Part shown: positions 50,316 through 63,091 of the stretch, piece by piece
How the letters are laid out: each line of letters opens with the position of its first letter
How positions within the stretch are numbered: the first letter of the stretch is position 1
Origin: Streptosporangiaceae bacterium NEAU-GS5
Lineage (GTDB): Bacteria; Actinomycetota; Actinomycetes; Streptosporangiales; Streptosporangiaceae
DNA: 64,000 nucleotides
Direction: 5' to 3'
Assembly (NCBI GenBank): GCA_017592665.1
Contig: JAGFNW010000001.1
Location: forward strand, 806,001-870,000
The notes under the pieces: generated by a model
The model's database searches: none
What the model saw: only the letters and a program-made list of their open reading frames with translations
Told to the model about the DNA's origin: nothing
Made by a program: the position numbers and the translations under genes

Positions 50316-51020
50316 TCAGCTCTCTCCGGGCAAGATCGCGAGAGCGACCTCGCCGGTCGAGGCGTACGCGGCGATGGTGGGCGACAGGGCCGCGTCAACG
50401 ACGATCGTCACGAGGCCGCTGCCTGGACGATCTGGAGAGCCGACGCTGTGCACCCGCGCGCTGGACGCGAGCACGCGTTGCTGGACGGCGCCCGTCCCCC
50501 GGCCGGCGCCGGGCACGTAGATGACCTGCACGACGTCACCTTTGGTGAGCGCGGCCGGTGCCTGGCCCGCCTTGAGGGCGAGCCCGACCAGGGCCTTGCC
50601 GGGGCCGAGCTCTTCGCTGGACGACGTCGTCATGCCTTCGGTGAGCAGCGTGCCCGGAAGCAGCGTCACCGCGGCGAACGTCTTGGCGACCTGGTCTCTG
50701 TAGCGCCAGGCCACATAGTCGATGCCGGAGTCGGCGATCTGCACTTCCTGCAGCGCCTCCGCGGGAATCGCCTGGCCCGCGCCGATCTGCTGGGTGATCC
50801 TGATCGCCGAGACCCGGTCACCGCTTCTCATGATCAGCAATGTCGTGGCCAGCGCGCCGCCGAGGATGAGCAGAACGGCCAGCGCCGCGAGCGCGGGCCT
50901 GCGCTCACGCGGCGGCACGGGAAGCTTCCGTGACGCGGGACCCGACAGGCTGTTCCTGTTCAGGTCGTGAGGGCCCGTCTGCGTACGGCTCTCGCCGGCG
51001 GGCCTGTCGCTGATCCTCAT
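50316..51020 (-). CDS. SAF-domain protein, CpaB/RcpC-like
   Basis: 234 residues from ATG 51020. A cytoplasmic head, one membrane segment near 43-62 (PALAALAVLLILGGALATTLL), and a SAF domain (ITQQIGAGQAIPAEALQEVQI), followed by VTLLPGTLLTEGMTT and the GDVVQVIYVPG strand. CpaB-like proteins support pilus assembly in the periplasm or wall zone. First gene of the 12-gene Tad operon; the promoter must lie in the 630 bases upstream. Confidence 0.9.
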   Translation of the reverse strand: MRISDRPAGESRTQTGPHDLNRNSLSGPASRKLPVPPRERRPALAALAVLLILGGALATTLLIMRSGDRVSAIRITQQIGAGQAIPAEALQEVQIADSGIDYVAWRYRDQVAKTFAAVTLLPGTLLTEGMTTSSSEELGPGKALVGLALKAGQAPAALTKGDVVQVIYVPGAGRGTGAVQQRVLASSARVHSVGSPDRPGSGLVTIVVDAALSPTIAAYASTGEVALAILPGES

Positions 51021-51650
51021 GGGCGGGGGACTCCCAGAAATGATCGTGCCCTTTGATGGGGCCACTTAAATGGGCGGCTTGGATTCCCGAAATTCTTGCT
51101 CATTATGCCGAGCACCCACGGCCACGCTGGCCGAATGTGGATAACCATGCTCATCCGTTAAGGCTCGACCGGCCCGTCGAAGTTTTCCCCATACCCATTT
51201 GTTAGGGCGGCTTCTCGGGGTCGAAATATCGTGATAAATGGAATTCAATTAATTCACTGGAGTCACAGGCGCCCCACGACCGTGAGCAAGCGGTGACGGG
51301 GCGTCGACGGCGAACGACGAGGCCACGAACCCACAGAGTTATCCACAGGCAGCGAGCGGGATGTGAGCGCGACTCGGCCCAAAGGAAGGGTTCTTTGCCA
51401 CGTCATGGCACAACTGCCCACCCGCGCGGCAGGACCGTATCCCATCCCGGCGAGTTATCCACAGGGATATCCACCGGCAGGCTCAGTCATCCACACGATG
51501 AGCGCCACACAGCCCTCAACTGAAACGGCCGTCCACAGGATGCCCACCGGTTCGTCCACAGCCCTACCGATTCAGCAAGACTCGTGGAGGCCGAGAGGAG
51601 GGAGAGCTACGGTGACTGCCCGCAGGCCGCGCCCTTTTGGAGACTGCCCC
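51021..51650. promoter_or_regulatory. Noncoding divergent region with a cluster of DnaA boxes
   Basis: Contains three perfect TTATCCACA boxes: 51136-51144 (minus strand), 51339-51347 and 51455-51463. One-mismatch variants are TCATCCACA (51487-51495) and TCGTCCACA (51552-51560, against the streptomycete form TTGTCCACA); a weaker one is at 51529-51537. A short A+T-rich island (GGAATTCAATTAATTCACTGG) lies near 51240-51260. It separates the Tad operon from the EccC-like gene and must hold both promoters. No dnaA or dnaN is adjacent, so this is not the usual chromosomal origin. Confidence 0.7.
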
Positions 51651-54600
51651 ATGCGGATCATGCTGACCGTGATCAACCGACACGGCACTTCTGAGGCCTT
51701 CCGCGACGTGGTGGTGGAGGGTGACGAGACGAGCACAGTGGCCGGGCTGGCCGCCGCCCTGACCGGGGGCGGACGGCCGAGCAACGTGGTCCGGCTGGCC
51801 CGGGCCCGCGCGCCATATGGGCTCGACGGCGCCGACGGCGGCTCGGTCAGAGCGCCCGAGCCCGAGACCACGCTGTGGCTGGACGGGCGGCCGCTCGATC
51901 CCGATGTCCAGCTGTTCGGCATGCTGCGCGACGGCGACCGGATCGCGCTCGACCCCGAGTCCGCCCACGTCACGCTGGCCGACGAGCCCGACGGCCTGAT
52001 CGAGTTGCGCGTGGTCGGCGGCCCGGACGCCGGCGCGGTTCATCGCCTCGCGCTCGGCGCGCACACGCTCGGGTCCGACCCGGCCTGCACCGTCGCCGTC
52101 CGCGATCCGAATCTCCCGCCCGTGGCCGCCACGATTCGCCTCACCCCGAGCGGCGTGACCGTCTCCCCCGCATCGGCCAATGGCCGTGCCCGGCACACAC
52201 CCGTCCCCCGGGGGAAGCCCGCCCGGTCGCGCTACTCGAAGACGCGCGGCTCAGGGAATGGCGACCGGCCCAGAGGCGACGCCGACCGTCAGCTCGATGA
52301 CGACCAGCGCGCCGGCTTCGAGGATGCGGCAGACCATCTCGGTGCGAACGGCGCCGACCTGCAGGCCGCGCATGACGGCCACGGCACCAGTGGCTGGGCT
52401 GACGCGGACGCGCGGTCGGCCGGCCCGCCCCCCGGAGCCCGCATGACGCTGGCGGGCGAGCCCGTGGACGAAGGGCGCGATTGGACGGAGGGGGCTCTGC
52501 TGACCGCCGGGCGTTCGGCCTTCACCGTGGGCATGGTCGAGCCGCCTGACGCGCATCTCGACGCTCTCCCCGATGGCGGTCTGGCCTACAACCGGCCGCC
52601 GCGCCTGCGGCCACCCGAGCGGCAGCGGCGTCTGGAGGTGCCCGTCGAGCCCAAGCGGTCCGACGGGATGCGCCTGCAGCTACTGGCCGCGCTGCTGCCC
52701 GCGCTGTTCGGCATCGTCCTCGCGCGGGTCACCGGCCAGTGGTATTTCCTGCTCATCGCCCTCATGACCCCGCTGATCATGATCGGCCAATGGGTGGGCG
52801 ACCGTAGACATGGGCGCAAGAAATACCGCCAGGCCGCCAAGGCGTACAAGGAGCGCCTCGCCGCCTTCGAGACCCGGCTCGCGAAGGCTCGCGCCGACGA
52901 CGAGATCGCCCGGCGACAGGCCGCGCCCGATCCCGCCGCGGTCCTGCTGACCGCGACAGGTCCTCGGCGGAGGCTGTGGGAGCGGCGCACCCACGATGAC
53001 GACGCGCTACGGCTCCGCATCGGCCTCGCCGACCTTCGTGCCGACCTCGACCTGGAGCATGAGCGCGGGGCACCTGCGGAAAGCGCGCCGCCCGAGCCGC
53101 CGCTGGCCAGGAACGTTCCCGTGGCGCTCGCGATGCGACGGCTCGGCGTGGCCGGCCTTACCGGCCCCCGGCATGTGGCACTGGGCTGCGCCCGCTGGGT
53201 GGTCGCCCAGGCCGCCACCCTCCACAGCCCACGTGACCTGGCCATCGTCGTGTTGTCGGCCAACCCTGATGGGGCGGAGGGGTGGGATTGGGTGCGTTGG
53301 CTCCCGCACGCCTCTCCCCGGCGTGTGCGGGCCGACAGCGCGGCCCTGGTGGGAGCCGACCCTGACGCGGCCGCGCATCGGGTCGCCGAGTTGGTGGCCT
53401 TGATCACCGAACGGCAAGAGGCGGCGCCCATGTTCGGCGGCAAGCTCGGCGCCGGCCCCTCCGGGTGGGACGACCTCGGCAAGGCGTCATCCCAGCCCGC
53501 TTCCGGCGGCGGGGAGCCAGTCTTCGCCAGCTACGACGAGCGTCCTTACGACGTGCTGGTGATCCTCGACGGCGCCCAGGTGCTGCGCACCCTGCCGGGC
53601 ATGCCGCAGGTCCTCCGCCAAGGCCCTCGCACAGGTGTCTACACGCTCGCGATCGACGACGACCAGCGCCTGCTGCCCGAAGAGTGCGCCACCGTCGTCT
53701 CCTGTTCTCCCGACGGTTCCGTACGGCTCCGCGGCGGCGGGCTGGACGCGCTTGGGGTGATCCGCGGCGATCAGGTGTCCACCTCCTGGGCCGACCGGCT
53801 CGGCCGGGCCTTGGCGCCGCTCCGCGACGTGAGCCGCGAGGATCCCGCCTCCGCCCTCCCGGACGCCGTCCGCCTGCTCGACCTCATCGAGTTGCCGAGC
53901 GGCGCAGACTTCCAATGGGGCCGATCCACGAAGGCCGTCATCGGTGTCGGCCCCGACGGCCCCTACTCGGTGGATCTCAGCGCCGACGGCCCGCACGCTC
54001 TTGTCGCTGGCACGACCGGCGCGGGCAAATCGGAGCTGCTGCAGACCCTGATCTGTTCGCTGGCCGTGGTCAACCGTCCCGACGAGATGACGTTCGTGCT
54101 GATCGACTACAAGGGCGGCGCCGCGTTCAAGGAGTGCGTACGGCTCCCGCACACGGTCGGCATGGTCAGCGACCTCGACGGCCACCTCACGCAACGGGCG
54201 CTGGCGTCACTCGCCGCCGAACTCCGGCGGCGCGAGCGACTGCTGCTCGACGTAGGGGCCAAGGACATCGACGACTACCAGCGCGCAAGGGCCTCGACGT
54301 GGGTCCTGGGAGCCGGCGGCGTGACCCGGTCCGACGCAGCGCTGCCTCCACTTCCACGGCTCGTGCTGATCATCGACGAGTTCGCCGCGCTGGTCGCCGA
54401 ACTGCCCGACTTCGTCGACGGGCTGGTCGACGTGGCCCGGCGGGGCCGTTCGCTCGGCATTCATCTGATCCTCGCCACGCAGCGTCCCGGCGGCGTCGTC
54501 ACGGCCGACATCCAGGCCAACACCTCGTTGCGGATCGCCCTCCGCGTGACCGATGCCCGCGAATCGGCCGACGTCATCGACGGCCCTGAGGCGGCGCTCA

Positions 54601-56597
54601 TCTCCCAGTCCACACCCGGCCGGTGTGTCATCCGTTCCGGCTCTGGGCCGGCGACAGCCGTACAGGCCGCTAGGGTCGGTGGGCGCACGCCCGCGCCAGG
54701 GACCGGCGGCGCGATCCGGGTCACCGACCTCCCGTGGCAGGCGCTCGGCCATCCGGTCCGGTCGACGGACGCCGTCGACACGGCCGACACCGACCTCGCC
54801 CTGCTCGTCGATCGGCTGCGAGAGGCGGCCCGCGACATACCGTCTCAGCCCAGCCCGTGGCTGCCGCCTCTTGCCGACCTGATCGAGCTCGCCGACGCCG
54901 TAGCCCTCCTGCCCGCGGCGACCCCGCCCGTCCGAGAAAAGTCCCATGCCGTCTCCGAGCTCGGCTCCTCCGCGCGCTCCGGACCCCGCCACGCCGCCAA
55001 GCCGGTCGTAAGGGGTGCGCAGCCTAATCGCGACAGCGCCGGCAGCGAATGGGACGGCGAGGTCCCGCCCATCCCATTCGGCGTGACCGACGTCCCGTGG
55101 GAGCAGACGCAGCGAGCTCTCGTCCTCGACGTACGGCATGGCGGACATCTGCTGGTCGCCGGAGCGGCACGCAGCGGCCGTTCGACCGTGCTCCGGACGC
55201 TGGCCGGGTCCATCGCGACCCATGCCTCAGCGGATGACGTCCACATTCACGCCATCGACTGCGGATCCGGCTCGCTGCTGCCGTTGATGGCCCTTCCGCA
55301 CTGCGGCGCCGTCGTCACCCGCGACCAACTCGACCGCGTCGATCGGCTGCTCGCCCGGCTCCGGGGCGAGGTCGGTCGGCGGCAGCAACTGCTGGCCGAA
55401 GCCGGCTACGCCTCACTGGCAGAAGCACGAACATCGGGGCTGCGGCTGCCGTGGCTGATCCTGCTGCTGGATCGGTGGGAGGGGTACGTCGCGGCGTTCG
55501 AGAACTACGACTACGGGCGGCTGCTCGACGCCTTCCTGCAGCTGCTGCGCGAGGGTCCCGCGGTGGGGCTCCGGGCAGTGGTCACAGCAGATCGCTCGGG
55601 CCTGCTCGGCCAGATCTCCACGGTCTTCGAAGACCGGCTGATTCTGCGGCTCGCCGACTCCGGCGACTACGGCCTGGCCGGGTTGCCGACGAAGAGCCTG
55701 CCGTCGGCGATTGCGCCTGGCCGGGCAATGGCCCCCGCCGAGCAGGGCATCGTCGAAAGCCAGATCGCTCTGCTCACCCCGGATCCAGCCGGGCCCGCGC
55801 AGGTAGCGGAGTTGCAGGCGCTCGCCCGCATCGCGCCTCCGCCAGAGGAGCATCGCCCGCTTCGCGTAGACGCGCTGCCCACCCGGATTTCGGCAGACCA
55901 GGCGATGGAGCTCGACCCGGCATTCGACCCTCCCTCACCGCTGTGGGCCCTCATCGGCGCCGGCGGCGACGCACTCGCTCCCCTCGGTCTTGACCTGCTA
56001 GCCCAGGGCCCAGCCGCCGTCATCGCCGGACCAGCCCGCTCCGGACGCTCGTCATGCCTGCTCACGGCCGCCCGATCGCTCCTCCAGCGGGGCACCCCGG
56101 TCCTCATCGTGACCCCACGCCGCAGCCCGCTCCGTGACCTCGCCGGTTCGCCCGGCGTCCTTGCCGTCCTGGACGGAAACGCTCGCTCAGTGGCGGGCGG
56201 CAGCGGCGACGACTTCGGTGGCCTGCCCGGCGCGAAGGATCCGCTCGCCCTGGTGATCGGCTACGAGCGCTACGTCGTGATCGTCGACGACGCCGAGCTC
56301 CTGTCGCCGGAGTCGATGCTCGGCCTGGCTGTGGAAGAAATGCTCCGCGGCGCCCGAGACGGCGAGCACGGCCTCATCATCGCCGGCACCACCGGCGACC
56401 TGACCACCGCCTACCGCGGCTTCACCGCCGAGGCCCGCAAGGCCCGCACCGGCGTCCTGCTGTCCGTCCAAAGCCCCGCCGATGGCGACCTGTTCAACGT
56501 ACGGCTCCCGCGCGGCGCCGTAGGCGGCCCTCCCGGCCGCGGCCTCCTCATCATCTCCGGCACGGTCACCCCCCTCCAAGCCGCCATCCCCACCTAA
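51651..56597 (+). CDS. EccC/EssC-like FtsK-SpoIIIE ATPase of a type VII secretion system
   Basis: 1648 residues from ATG 51651, with GGAG 8 bases upstream; GTG 51612 behind AGGAGGGAG is an equally spaced alternative adding 13 residues. Residues 1-110 look like a ubiquitin-type domain (MRIMLTVINRHG); about 120-175 is a degenerate FHA domain lacking the S-R-x-H motif. Two membrane helices lie at about 344-384. Three FtsK domains follow. Only D1 is canonical, with K793 in GTTGAGKSEL and LIIDEF. In D2 (GAARSGRST, R1177) and D3 (GPARSGRSS, R1466) the Walker lysine is Arg. EccC proteins recognise and export WXG100 substrates; one is encoded at 57915. Confidence 0.93.
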   Translation: MRIMLTVINRHGTSEAFRDVVVEGDETSTVAGLAAALTGGGRPSNVVRLARARAPYGLDGADGGSVRAPEPETTLWLDGRPLDPDVQLFGMLRDGDRIALDPESAHVTLADEPDGLIELRVVGGPDAGAVHRLALGAHTLGSDPACTVAVRDPNLPPVAATIRLTPSGVTVSPASANGRARHTPVPRGKPARSRYSKTRGSGNGDRPRGDADRQLDDDQRAGFEDAADHLGANGADLQAAHDGHGTSGWADADARSAGPPPGARMTLAGEPVDEGRDWTEGALLTAGRSAFTVGMVEPPDAHLDALPDGGLAYNRPPRLRPPERQRRLEVPVEPKRSDGMRLQLLAALLPALFGIVLARVTGQWYFLLIALMTPLIMIGQWVGDRRHGRKKYRQAAKAYKERLAAFETRLAKARADDEIARRQAAPDPAAVLLTATGPRRRLWERRTHDDDALRLRIGLADLRADLDLEHERGAPAESAPPEPPLARNVPVALAMRRLGVAGLTGPRHVALGCARWVVAQAATLHSPRDLAIVVLSANPDGAEGWDWVRWLPHASPRRVRADSAALVGADPDAAAHRVAELVALITERQEAAPMFGGKLGAGPSGWDDLGKASSQPASGGGEPVFASYDERPYDVLVILDGAQVLRTLPGMPQVLRQGPRTGVYTLAIDDDQRLLPEECATVVSCSPDGSVRLRGGGLDALGVIRGDQVSTSWADRLGRALAPLRDVSREDPASALPDAVRLLDLIELPSGADFQWGRSTKAVIGVGPDGPYSVDLSADGPHALVAGTTGAGKSELLQTLICSLAVVNRPDEMTFVLIDYKGGAAFKECVRLPHTVGMVSDLDGHLTQRALASLAAELRRRERLLLDVGAKDIDDYQRARASTWVLGAGGVTRSDAALPPLPRLVLIIDEFAALVAELPDFVDGLVDVARRGRSLGIHLILATQRPGGVVTADIQANTSLRIALRVTDARESADVIDGPEAALISQSTPGRCVIRSGSGPATAVQAARVGGRTPAPGTGGAIRVTDLPWQALGHPVRSTDAVDTADTDLALLVDRLREAARDIPSQPSPWLPPLADLIELADAVALLPAATPPVREKSHAVSELGSSARSGPRHAAKPVVRGAQPNRDSAGSEWDGEVPPIPFGVTDVPWEQTQRALVLDVRHGGHLLVAGAARSGRSTVLRTLAGSIATHASADDVHIHAIDCGSGSLLPLMALPHCGAVVTRDQLDRVDRLLARLRGEVGRRQQLLAEAGYASLAEARTSGLRLPWLILLLDRWEGYVAAFENYDYGRLLDAFLQLLREGPAVGLRAVVTADRSGLLGQISTVFEDRLILRLADSGDYGLAGLPTKSLPSAIAPGRAMAPAEQGIVESQIALLTPDPAGPAQVAELQALARIAPPPEEHRPLRVDALPTRISADQAMELDPAFDPPSPLWALIGAGGDALAPLGLDLLAQGPAAVIAGPARSGRSSCLLTAARSLLQRGTPVLIVTPRRSPLRDLAGSPGVLAVLDGNARSVAGGSGDDFGGLPGAKDPLALVIGYERYVVIVDDAELLSPESMLGLAVEEMLRGARDGEHGLIIAGTTGDLTTAYRGFTAEARKARTGVLLSVQSPADGDLFNVRLPRGAVGGPPGRGLLIISGTVTPLQAAIPT

Positions 56598-56924
56598 TCC
56601 CTGCCAGCTCCACCCATGTGGATCCTTGCCAGCTCCACCCATCATCCTTGCCAGCTCCACCCATCTGGTCGCTCGCTTGTTCTCCGCTGCTGCTGTTCTC
56701 CGCTGCTGCCCACGGCCTCCGATCGTTCCTGCGTGGCCAACGGCGCCGAGGGGCTCGTCCCTGCGCCCAACCGGCCGCGCTTCTGCTTCGCAGGGATGTC
56801 GACGGCGGACCGGAACTGGACCAGTTCCGAACTGACAGCGACGTGTGTGTGGTGTGGTGCCTGCCGCTGCGCCCGTTTATAGCCACAGCGAAAGAGGGCG
56901 GCGCGCATCTTCAAGGCGCACTTC

Positions 56925-57090
56925 ACGGCGCGCGTGTTCACGGCGCACATCCTTCACGGCTCGCGTGCTCACGGCGCTCATGTTCACGGCGCTCATGTTC
57001 ACGGCGCTCATGTTCACGGCGCTCATGTTCACGGCGCTCATGTTCACGGCGCTCATGTTCACGGCGCTCATGTTCACGGCGCTCATGTTC
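56925..57090. repeat. 15-base tandem repeat array
   Basis: Eight perfect copies of ACGGCGCTCATGTTC from 56971 to 57090, preceded by three diverged units (56925-56970, one of them 16 bases). Perfect identity points to recent expansion. All six frames are open across the array. On the minus strand it reads VNMSA repeated, which fits the pentapeptide-repeat consensus; on the plus strand, MFTAL. Confidence 0.9.
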
Positions 57091-57229
57091 ACGGCGCGGC
57101 GTATCGAGACGCTCTGTCGTAAAGCCGTAGACCTGGCGCCGGGTGCCGTGTGTTGCAGCGCGCTGCGGTGTGCGACGGGTGCTCGAAGAGGTGCCCGCCC
57201 CGTGCTGTCGACACGTGCCCGGGCGTGCG

Positions 57230-57914: not shown

Positions 57915-58187
57915 TCAGCGGGTGGCGGACTCGATGTTGGTGCGGTAGGTGTTGATGACCCGGGACGCCTCGTTGAGTTCTTCGGACATGCGCTGGAAGG
58001 CGGCGCGGTAGCTCTGCCAGGCTTCGCGGAAGCGTTCGGCGCCGGTGCCGGTCCATACGGTGCCGACCTTGGAAGCCTCGCGGTCGAGGCTCGCCATCGT
58101 GGCGCGCACCTGGTCCGCCTGCTGGGTGAACTGGGCGGCCATGCTCTGCATCTCCGCCGGGTCGCCGCCGAGCAAACCGTTACTCAT
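57915..58187 (-). CDS. WXG100 (ESAT-6-like) family protein
   Basis: 90 residues from ATG 58187, with AAGGAG upstream. Helix-turn-helix hairpin of two amphipathic helices joined by the W-x-G turn (VGTVWTGTGAERF). The C-terminal helix continues ERFREAWQSYRAAFQRMSEELNEASRVI. Such proteins are exported by type VII secretion. The only type VII component in the window is the EccC-like ATPase 1.3 kb away on the other strand, its probable translocase. Confidence 0.93.
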   Translation of the reverse strand: MSNGLLGGDPAEMQSMAAQFTQQADQVRATMASLDREASKVGTVWTGTGAERFREAWQSYRAAFQRMSEELNEASRVINTYRTNIESATR

Positions 58188-58284
58188 ACGTCTCTCCTTC
58201 ATCGAAGGTCGCCCCCGAGCGCGGGTAGGCGCCCTCAACGTAGACCTCAGCAAGCAGGCGTACTGCGGATATGCAAAGCCGCTA

Positions 58285-59070: not shown

Positions 59071-59420
59071 GAGTTCGGGTCGGGGCTCGGGTCGTGGGTC
59101 GGGGCTCGGGTCGTGGGTCGGGGCTCGGGTCGTGGGTCGAGGTTCGGGTCGTGGGTCGGAGTTCGGGTCGTGGGTCGGAGTTCGGGTCGTGGGTCGGAGT
59201 TCGGGTCGTGGTCGGGGCTGGGGTCTGTGCTCGGGGCTCGGGCTGTGGTCGGGGCTCGGGCTGTGGTCGGGGCTCGGGCTGTGGTCGGGGCTCGGGCTGT
59301 GGTCGGGGCTGGGGTCTGTGGTCGGGGCTCGGGCTGTGGTCGGGGCTCGGGCTGTGGTCGGGGCTCGGGCTGTGGTCGGGGCTCGGGCTGTGGTCGGGGC
59401 TCGGGCTGTGGTTGGGGTTT
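59071..59420. repeat. Two adjoining G/T-rich minisatellites (19-base and 18-base units)
   Basis: From 59071 to about 59220 the unit is GGGTCGTGGGTCGGGGCTC (19 bases, degenerate). From about 59221 to 59420 it is GGGCTGTGGTCGGGGCTC (18 bases, ten to eleven copies with one 19-base variant). The plus strand has almost no A over 350 bases. The 640 bases between the SDR and the biotin carboxylase gene otherwise hold only a GTG start with AGGAAGGGA near the right end. Confidence 0.9.
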
Positions 59421-61468: not shown

Positions 61469-62893
61469 GTGACCATTACCCATCCGCTGGGCCGCGTGGG
61501 CGCCGCCGTAGCGGCGCTGTTCGTCGGCCTGCTCGCGCTATTCGCGCTTTCCCCGGCCGCCGCGCACGCAGCCGCTGCTCCCGCTCCGCCTACCCCGGCG
61601 CAGGTCGTGGCAGCGTGGAAGACGGGGAATCCGCTGTACGTCGTCGATGGCTCCGCGCTCTCCAGCAAGGAGGCGTCGGATATCAGCGACACGCTGAAGG
61701 AATATCGCAACCGCAACATCTACGCGGTGGCTCTGCCTGACGGCACCATCACCACGTCGAGCGCGGCCAGCACCTACCTGAGGTCGCTGTCCAACGCGCT
61801 CCGCGACGCCGGAAAGTCGGAGAACGTCGTAGCCGCGCTCGACGGCAAGACGCTCTTCGCGGGCTCCAACTATGTCCAGGCCGGCCGCCTCGCAAGCCTT
61901 GCCACCGGCGCCAACAAGGACGTCGTGAGCGGGATGCAGGACTTCGCCAAGCGCGTCGACCTCGCCGCGCAGCGTAACCCTGATGCCCTCAAGAACGATC
62001 CGGTCGGCGGCGGGGGCGGCGGCGCCGGTGTCCTGATCGGCATCGGAGCGGTGGCGGTCATCGGAGGTGGCGGTTTGTGGATCATCTCGCGCCGGATGAA
62101 GCGGCAGCGTGAGGCCAAGGCGGCGGCTGAACTCGCCGCCGTGAGCAAGACCGTGGAAGAGGACGTCACAAAGTTCGGTGAGGAGATCACCGCGCTCGAC
62201 ATGGACGTCAGGATGTTGCCGGCGGGCTCCGACACGACGGGCGACTGGCAGCGCGCGCTCGACTCCTACGAGCGGGCCAAGACCGAGCTGGACGCCGTCA
62301 AGCGGCCCGAGGATCTGCGCACCGTGACGGCCACCCTGGAAGACGGGCGTTATGCCCTTGCCTGTGTGAAGGCCCGCGTCAACAACCAGGCGGTGCCCGA
62401 GCGGCGGCCCCCGTGCTTCTTCAACCCGCAGCACGGCCCGTCCGTGCGCGACGTGCGCTGGGCCCCGCCCGGCGGCGCGGCGCGCGAGGTCCCGGCCTGC
62501 GCTATGGACGCCGAGGCCGTCGAGCGCGGCTTCGACCCGCAGATGCGCGAGGTCGTGACGGTAGGCGGCCAGCGCATGCCTTACTGGAACGCCGGCCCGG
62601 CCTACCAGCCCTACGCCTCCGGCTACTACGGCGGCTTCGGCGGCGACCTGCTGACCGGCATGCTGGTCGGCACGCTGCTCGGCAGCTCGTTCGGCGGCTG
62701 GGGTTACGGCGGCGTGGGCGGCTACGGCTCCGGCTACGACGCCGGCTACCAGCAGGGCGTCGAGTCCGGCGGAGGTGACTTCGGCGGCGGCGGAGACTGG
62801 GGCGGCGGTGGCGGCGACTTCGGCGGCGGAGGCGGTGGCGACTGGGGTGGCGGTGACTTCGGCGGCGGCGACTTCGGCGGCGGAGATTGGTAA
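61469..62893 (+). CDS. TPM-like membrane protein with Gly-rich C-terminus
   Basis: 474 residues. An N-terminal signal (AALFVGLLALFALSPAAAHAA) precedes an extracytoplasmic domain with the alpha/beta pattern of TPM phosphatase-like proteins (VAAWKTGNPLYVVDGSALSS, IYAVALPDGTITTSSAA). A membrane helix (GAGVLIGIGAVAVIGGGGLWII) lies near 185-205, then a cytoplasmic coiled region and a segment with CFFNPQHGPS. The last 60 residues are Gly-Asp-Phe/Trp units (GGGDFGGGDW). The function is unknown; similar proteins in actinobacteria occur as solitary genes. Confidence 0.85.
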   Translation: MTITHPLGRVGAAVAALFVGLLALFALSPAAAHAAAAPAPPTPAQVVAAWKTGNPLYVVDGSALSSKEASDISDTLKEYRNRNIYAVALPDGTITTSSAASTYLRSLSNALRDAGKSENVVAALDGKTLFAGSNYVQAGRLASLATGANKDVVSGMQDFAKRVDLAAQRNPDALKNDPVGGGGGGAGVLIGIGAVAVIGGGGLWIISRRMKRQREAKAAAELAAVSKTVEEDVTKFGEEITALDMDVRMLPAGSDTTGDWQRALDSYERAKTELDAVKRPEDLRTVTATLEDGRYALACVKARVNNQAVPERRPPCFFNPQHGPSVRDVRWAPPGGAAREVPACAMDAEAVERGFDPQMREVVTVGGQRMPYWNAGPAYQPYASGYYGGFGGDLLTGMLVGTLLGSSFGGWGYGGVGGYGSGYDAGYQQGVESGGGDFGGGGDWGGGGGDFGGGGGGDWGGGDFGGGDFGGGDW

Positions 62894-62910
62894 TCCGGCC
62901 CGCCCTGCGA

Positions 62911-63091
62911 TCCGTTCTGCTGGTCAGCGGTCCATCATGAAGTGCGTTCCGCTGGTCAGTAGTCCCATCATGAAGTGCGCTCTGCTGGTCAGCGGTCCAT
63001 CCTGAAATCCGTTCCGCTGGTCAGTAGTCCCATCCTGAGACCCGTTCCGCTCGTAAGCGGTTCGTTCTGAAATCCGTTCCGCCGCAAGCGG
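62911..63091. repeat. Degenerate 33-base tandem repeat
   Basis: Five to six copies of a unit like GTTCCGCTGGTCAG, then AGTCCCATCATGAAGTGC, mostly 32-34 bases, alternating between two subtypes (GGTCCATC and AGTCCCATC). It follows the TPM-like gene and lies in a 365-base gap. In one minus-strand frame it spells an 11-residue repeat, but there is no start signal and the other frames are equally open. Confidence 0.8.

Follow-up and report, generated by a model that had tools for sequence, protein, structure and literature searches.

The 630-bp non-coding gap which separates a divergent tad (pilus) operon from an eccC-like gene in the genome of the soil actinobacterium Streptosporangiaceae bacterium NEAU-GS5 harbours three perfect copies of the DnaA-box word TTATCCACA together with four weaker boxes. 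The gap lies within the 64-kb stretch of contig JAGFNW010000001.1 that was analysed here and is referred to as the window. Most of the boxes form one co-oriented array in which box A is followed, after about 116 bp, by box C, after a further 3 bp by box D, then by box E and finally by weaker boxes. Retention of this row at the same position in eight further genera suggests a genuine control element and not a chance cluster. Tentatively, we read it as a chromosomal DnaA-binding site outside oriC which would withdraw DnaA from oriC. The original prediction, made from the letters of the window, had reported a cluster of three perfect boxes plus variants in non-coding DNA away from any dnaA gene. 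Its coordinates are confirmed, the boxes amount to seven, and dnaA resides on a different contig (C44:133336-134880) with boxes of its own flanking both sides. Beyond that prediction, the boxes make up an array whose order, orientation and spacing are conserved; the box at 51136 lies outside it. The boxes of the gap are:

51136..51144, minus strand: perfect TTATCCACA near the tad operon, outside the conserved array
51339..51347, plus strand: box A, TTATCCACA, the array's distal box
51455..51463, plus strand: box C, TTATCCACA, proximal, 116 bp from A (117 bp in Acrocarpospora)
51467..51475, plus strand: box D, weak, ATATCCACC with two mismatches, 3 bp after C
51487..51495, plus strand: box E, TCATCCACA with one mismatch, 32 bp after C
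51529..51537, plus strand: weak box CCGTCCACA with two mismatches
51552..51560, plus strand: TCGTCCACA, one mismatch to TTGTCCACA

Arrangement and conservation of the boxes

Exactly three perfect boxes are present in the window, all of them within the tad-eccC gap, and the number of boxes with at most one mismatch (eight) is reached by none of 100 shuffles. At the genome-wide rate, three perfect boxes in 425 bp are expected 4e-5 times per genome. The entire genome (9.96 Mb, 127 contigs) contains 50 perfect copies of TTATCCACA versus 13 of the reversed control word. Similar box density elsewhere had been named as a reason to doubt the cluster; other close groupings do exist, but they are few, namely eight close same-strand pairs and one further perfect triple. 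In three complete relatives of similar size, the perfect word is counted 11-22 times.

Conservation was assessed at 80 loci encoding eccC relatives, which were collected without reference to boxes. All flanks of sufficient length show the same tad-eccC order, and synteny of the tad-eccC-WXG100 neighbourhood extends throughout the family. The array occupies the tad-eccC gap of nine genera, comprising the window's own, Acrocarpospora, Herbidospora, Streptosporangium, Planomonospora, Planobispora and Sphaerisporangium as well as one Planotetraspora (A-T 1434) and genus g5, each of the latter two bearing a version of it. In the six genera named from Acrocarpospora to Sphaerisporangium, the position of box A relative to the proximal boxes is matched. 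Box spacings are 116, 12 and 20 bp in the window, 98, 19, 12 and 20 bp in Acrocarpospora, 99-111, 12 and 20 bp in Herbidospora, and 98-100 and 19 bp in Sphaerisporangium. Streptosporangium, Planomonospora and Planobispora possess three co-oriented boxes, the distal one located 89-102 bp from the next, which is followed after 19 bp by the last. The C-to-E distance of 32 bp recurs in Acrocarpospora and Herbidospora. The counterpart of box D reads ATATCCACC in Acrocarpospora, too, and TTACCCACA in Herbidospora, while the Acrocarpospora stretch corresponding to the box at 51529 carries GTGTCCACA.

The array was not found upstream of eccC in Microbispora, Microtetraspora, the other Planotetraspora, Spongiactinospora, Rhizohabitans and Actinomadura, nor in genus g4 (many large genomes), one member of which has a different box pair. 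The loss of boxes from relatives with unchanged gene order, likewise named beforehand as a reason for doubt, has thus occurred in Microbispora, Microtetraspora, Actinomadura and most of g4, whereas nine genera have retained them. Such absences in spite of shared gene order are what chance, or neutral inheritance without function, would lead one to expect. Besides the window statistics, however, the pattern of sequence identity makes this explanation extremely improbable: among 13 aligned arrays of the Streptosporangium group the mean pairwise identity amounts to 0.97 in box columns, compared to 0.56 in spacers and 0.52 in flanks, a figure which is somewhat inflated as part of these arrays, unlike the 80 eccC-relative loci, came via pattern search. 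Furthermore, permuted words average 0.05 occurrences across 79 upstream regions, in which the perfect box is found 22 times. A second, diverged tad-eccC locus (~50% identity) is present in Planotetraspora kaengkrachanensis and P. mira; it is devoid of the array.

The original prediction had also considered that an integrated element might have left a remnant origin here. Near box A, the segment 51190-51279 is AT-rich (43% GC) and placed as an unwinding element would be. A remnant or cryptic origin of this kind is nevertheless very unlikely, and we rejected it on the family-wide synteny of the neighbourhood. The array is ancestral on the tree described below, the spacers around the boxes lack conservation from one genus to another, and the list of open reading frames of the window shows no initiator gene beside the array.

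Relation of the array to DnaA and oriC

In the dnaA-dnaN gaps of 12 family genomes, the most frequent 9-mers include GTTATCCAC and GTTGTCCAC. As this is the same word as in the array, the latter is built from the family's own oriC motif. In three complete chromosomes TTATCCACA clusters near dnaA, with a median of 0.21 of the half-chromosome (Kolmogorov-Smirnov p = 1e-6), whereas the reversed word, used as control in the same chromosomes, yields a median of 0.54 (p = 0.49). Close box pairs are likewise concentrated around dnaA in four chromosomes (p = 3e-7). A comparable concentration of boxes near the origin is known from E. coli (PMC12371093), and origin-proximal concentration is what initiator titration would predict. 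In addition, the weak variant TTACCCACA occurs both in the array and in the oriC of Herbidospora. Recognition of the array by some other protein specific for a TTATCCACA-like word is conceivable inasmuch as a footprint alone does not name the protein that binds. Yet the identity of the word with that of oriC, its concentration around the origin and the variant common to both places in Herbidospora render this improbable, and DnaA is the presumable ligand of the array. The distance of 3 bp between boxes C and D falls within the range of 2-3 bp which E. coli DnaA prefers in box pairs (PMC11317965).

The array does not adjoin dnaA or dnaN, dnaA being located on contig C44. In relatives which carry both on one contig, array and dnaA are 1.06-1.40 Mb apart, which places the array in the box-rich third of the chromosome, not adjacent to dnaA.

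We searched 341 family genomes for the array pattern and used the reversed pattern as a control. The former is matched in 83 genomes, the latter in none. Genera with the array carry roughly one copy of the pattern per genome: comparison of coordinates and sequences by hand assigns 33 matches to a site beside eccC, four to oriC or oriC-like places and two to other sites, with array and eccC on separate contigs in one genome of this tally. Most of the remaining matches fall in genus g47, where the sequences are oriC-like by appearance. On a tree of eccC proteins (fasttree) four changes are needed for the array; the preferred reading is that the ancestor of the main Streptosporangiaceae clade possessed it and that it was later lost in Microbispora, Microtetraspora and most Planotetraspora. 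The window groups with Acrocarpospora and Herbidospora, albeit with a support of only 81%.

A possible DnaA sink or regulator of eccC

If the array acts as a DnaA sink, loading of DnaA would begin at box C and at box D, 3 bp from it, and proceed to box E and the weaker boxes beyond; contact with DnaA bound to box A about 100-120 bp away would give rise to one nucleoprotein complex. Passage of the replication fork would double the site, upon which DnaA would be withdrawn and perhaps inactivated. This would restrain re-initiation at oriC, as has been described for datA of E. coli and for the clusters of Streptomyces coelicolor and Bacillus subtilis. Both the looping and the effect on initiation are what we infer. 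The A-C spacing shifts by about 11 bp within Streptosporangium (from 118-120 to 108-110 bp) and within Herbidospora (from 110 to 99 bp), and such steps near one helical turn are suggestive, although only suggestive, of looping. A Rayleigh test on 15 lineage values, which are not independent of each other, gives p = 0.002 at 10.5 bp.

A free-standing site is favoured by loci in which the array persists without its usual context. Two Sphaerisporangium species, S. perillae and S. fuscum, have a lipoprotein gene (Lipoprotein_15 in the former) inserted between array and eccC; the former has cutA between array and tad in addition. In both species the array is intact, with its spacing of 98-99 and 19 bp. 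Planotetraspora A-T 1434 carries the array without the -10-like motif found upstream of eccC.

Several observations weigh against the sink. In all array genera except Sphaerisporangium and Planotetraspora A-T 1434 the array is 213-312 bp away from eccC, while its tad-side distance ranges from 300 to 1209 bp; this tight distance on one side only points to eccC instead of a site that stands free. Entire clades lack the array. As dnaA of the window genome is on another contig, the array-oriC distance is measured in relatives only. The helical-phase test includes few independent lineages, and a period of 9.5 bp fits slightly better than 10.5 bp. Binding of DnaA itself is inferred from sequence. 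A role of the array as promoter element of tad was rejected, as the distance to tad spans a fourfold range and is interrupted by other genes.

DnaA might instead serve as a transcription factor of eccC, activating or repressing it, whereby secretion would be tied to the replication state. We regard this as a serious possibility, though one with less than even chances. Every box of the array is oriented towards eccC, the array-to-ATG distance is nearly fixed in most genera, and the last box precedes the eccC start codon by ~95-130 bp and a conserved -10-like element by ~50-90 bp; in the window this element is:

51608..51613, plus strand: TACGGT, -10-like element of eccC, 43 bp before the ATG

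This motif is present at 22 of 24 array-bearing loci (at -35 to -44) as opposed to six of 29 array-less ones, and DnaA is known to regulate transcription (PMC8203912; PMC11317965). However, the Sphaerisporangium array is intact although it is 504-1071 bp away from eccC, twice behind an inserted gene, so that the fixed place of the boxes relative to the promoter, seen in most genera, does not hold there. The -10-like element also occurs without array in Spongiactinospora, the converse of Planotetraspora A-T 1434, and the co-occurrence of both reduces to only four independent pairs on the tree (sign test p ~0.5). Hence, the tie to eccC is weakened by Sphaerisporangium and partly restored by the -10-like motif and the distance data. 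We place the sink slightly ahead of the promoter role; a dual role is quite possible. DnaA titration and DnaA-controlled transcription had both been suggested originally, and both stand, the cluster being non-random and conserved, but the present data do not yet tell them apart.

Gene neighbourhood, known clusters and significance

The genes and the AT-rich segment surrounding the array are:

50316..51020, minus strand: divergent tad operon, gene 1, CpaB/SAF-like as judged by position
51190..51279, no strand assigned: most AT-rich stretch of the gap, 43% GC, a candidate tad promoter or unwinding-prone DNA
51651..56597, plus strand: eccC-like FtsK/SpoIIIE ATPase gene (type VII secretion)
57915..58253, minus strand: WXG100 gene downstream of eccC

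The first gene of the tad operon has no match in Pfam; the minus-strand operon also encodes a CpaF-type T2SSE ATPase. Because the plus-strand gene codes for an FtsK/SpoIIIE ATPase and a WXG100 gene comes after it, we take the former as a type VII secretion ATPase gene. Its reading frame is open back to 51363, which raised the possibility of the boxes being coding DNA. This was ruled out by conservation of the start at 51651 (MRI...) and by stop codons that many relatives carry shortly before it. Within the gap no Rfam family is matched, whereby a structured RNA was rejected, and a scan for a consensus sigma-70 promoter or a terminator found none. Downstream of eccC, the window contains dense short tandem repeats at 56922-57097, 59078-59417, 62767-62885 and 62910-63082 with units of 15, 18, 15-39 and 32/65 bp, respectively.

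Regarding boxes elsewhere in this genome, the second perfect TTATCCACA triple is accompanied by GTATCCACA within 113 bp (C51:102434-102546). At C51:230321-230554 eight TCCACA-core sites are crowded into ~230 bp in or beside a frame which, by eye, encodes a ROK-like regulator. Three pairs of boxes in the same orientation are exactly 18 bp apart (C49:33319, C58:15220, C73:281517), one of them between genes judged by eye from their translations to be FmdB-like and methylthioadenosine phosphorylase-like. These three pairs perhaps represent a DnaA regulon.

datA requires an IHF site between its boxes 2 and 3 and promotes hydrolysis of DnaA-ATP. To our knowledge, actinobacterial IHF has no sharp consensus, and we know of no report linking the S. 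coelicolor cluster to a tad-eccC gap. In its anatomy datA resembles the present array, no shared ancestry being claimed: it comprises a consensus box, a box with one misfit and an essential box with two misfits, its sites being conserved and its spacers variable (PMC5835720; PMC4585315), and it keeps a roughly constant relative distance from oriC (PMC4585315). According to two reviews (PMC5742627; PMC4585315), DnaA-box clusters of S. coelicolor and B. subtilis repress untimely initiation in a manner analogous to datA. Therein, the former is attributed to Smulczyk-Krawczyszyn et al. 2006 (both reviews) and the oriC-proximal clusters of B. subtilis to Okumura et al. 2012 (PMC5742627). The S. coelicolor cluster is likewise an actinobacterial, non-oriC one, but lies close to oriC (PMC4585315), in contrast to the 1.06-1.40 Mb given above for the arrays of relatives. 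B. subtilis, in the account of PMC5742627, has several cluster loci close to oriC instead of a single main place. In E. coli, DnaA-regulated promoters have paired boxes, separated by 2-3 bp, in front of genes (PMC11317965); their spacing is like that of C and D, whereas the present cluster is larger and includes a distal box ~100-120 bp away.

In the literature searched, no type VII secretion gene under DnaA control and nothing relevant on DnaA in Streptosporangium turned up. The array combines several boxes clustered beyond chance in non-coding DNA away from oriC with a box sequence and arrangement conserved in relatives. Judged from genome sequences, it would be a family-wide addition to the extra-oriC DnaA-box clusters, at a locus which we did not find described. 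Restraint of initiation by DnaA sites outside oriC has been demonstrated for no more than a few model bacteria. A single array conserved across a family of hyphal actinobacteria provides a defined target for asking about initiator titration and about control of a secretion gene by DnaA, and its conserved spacing constitutes a natural data set on the formation of DnaA complexes away from oriC. A bolder and rather unlikely extension is that the ancestral, family-wide array forms a looped DnaA complex which couples expression of the type VII secretion ATPase to replication while also acting as a DnaA sink. If true, the coupling of eccC to replication would perhaps extend to hyphal or spore development.
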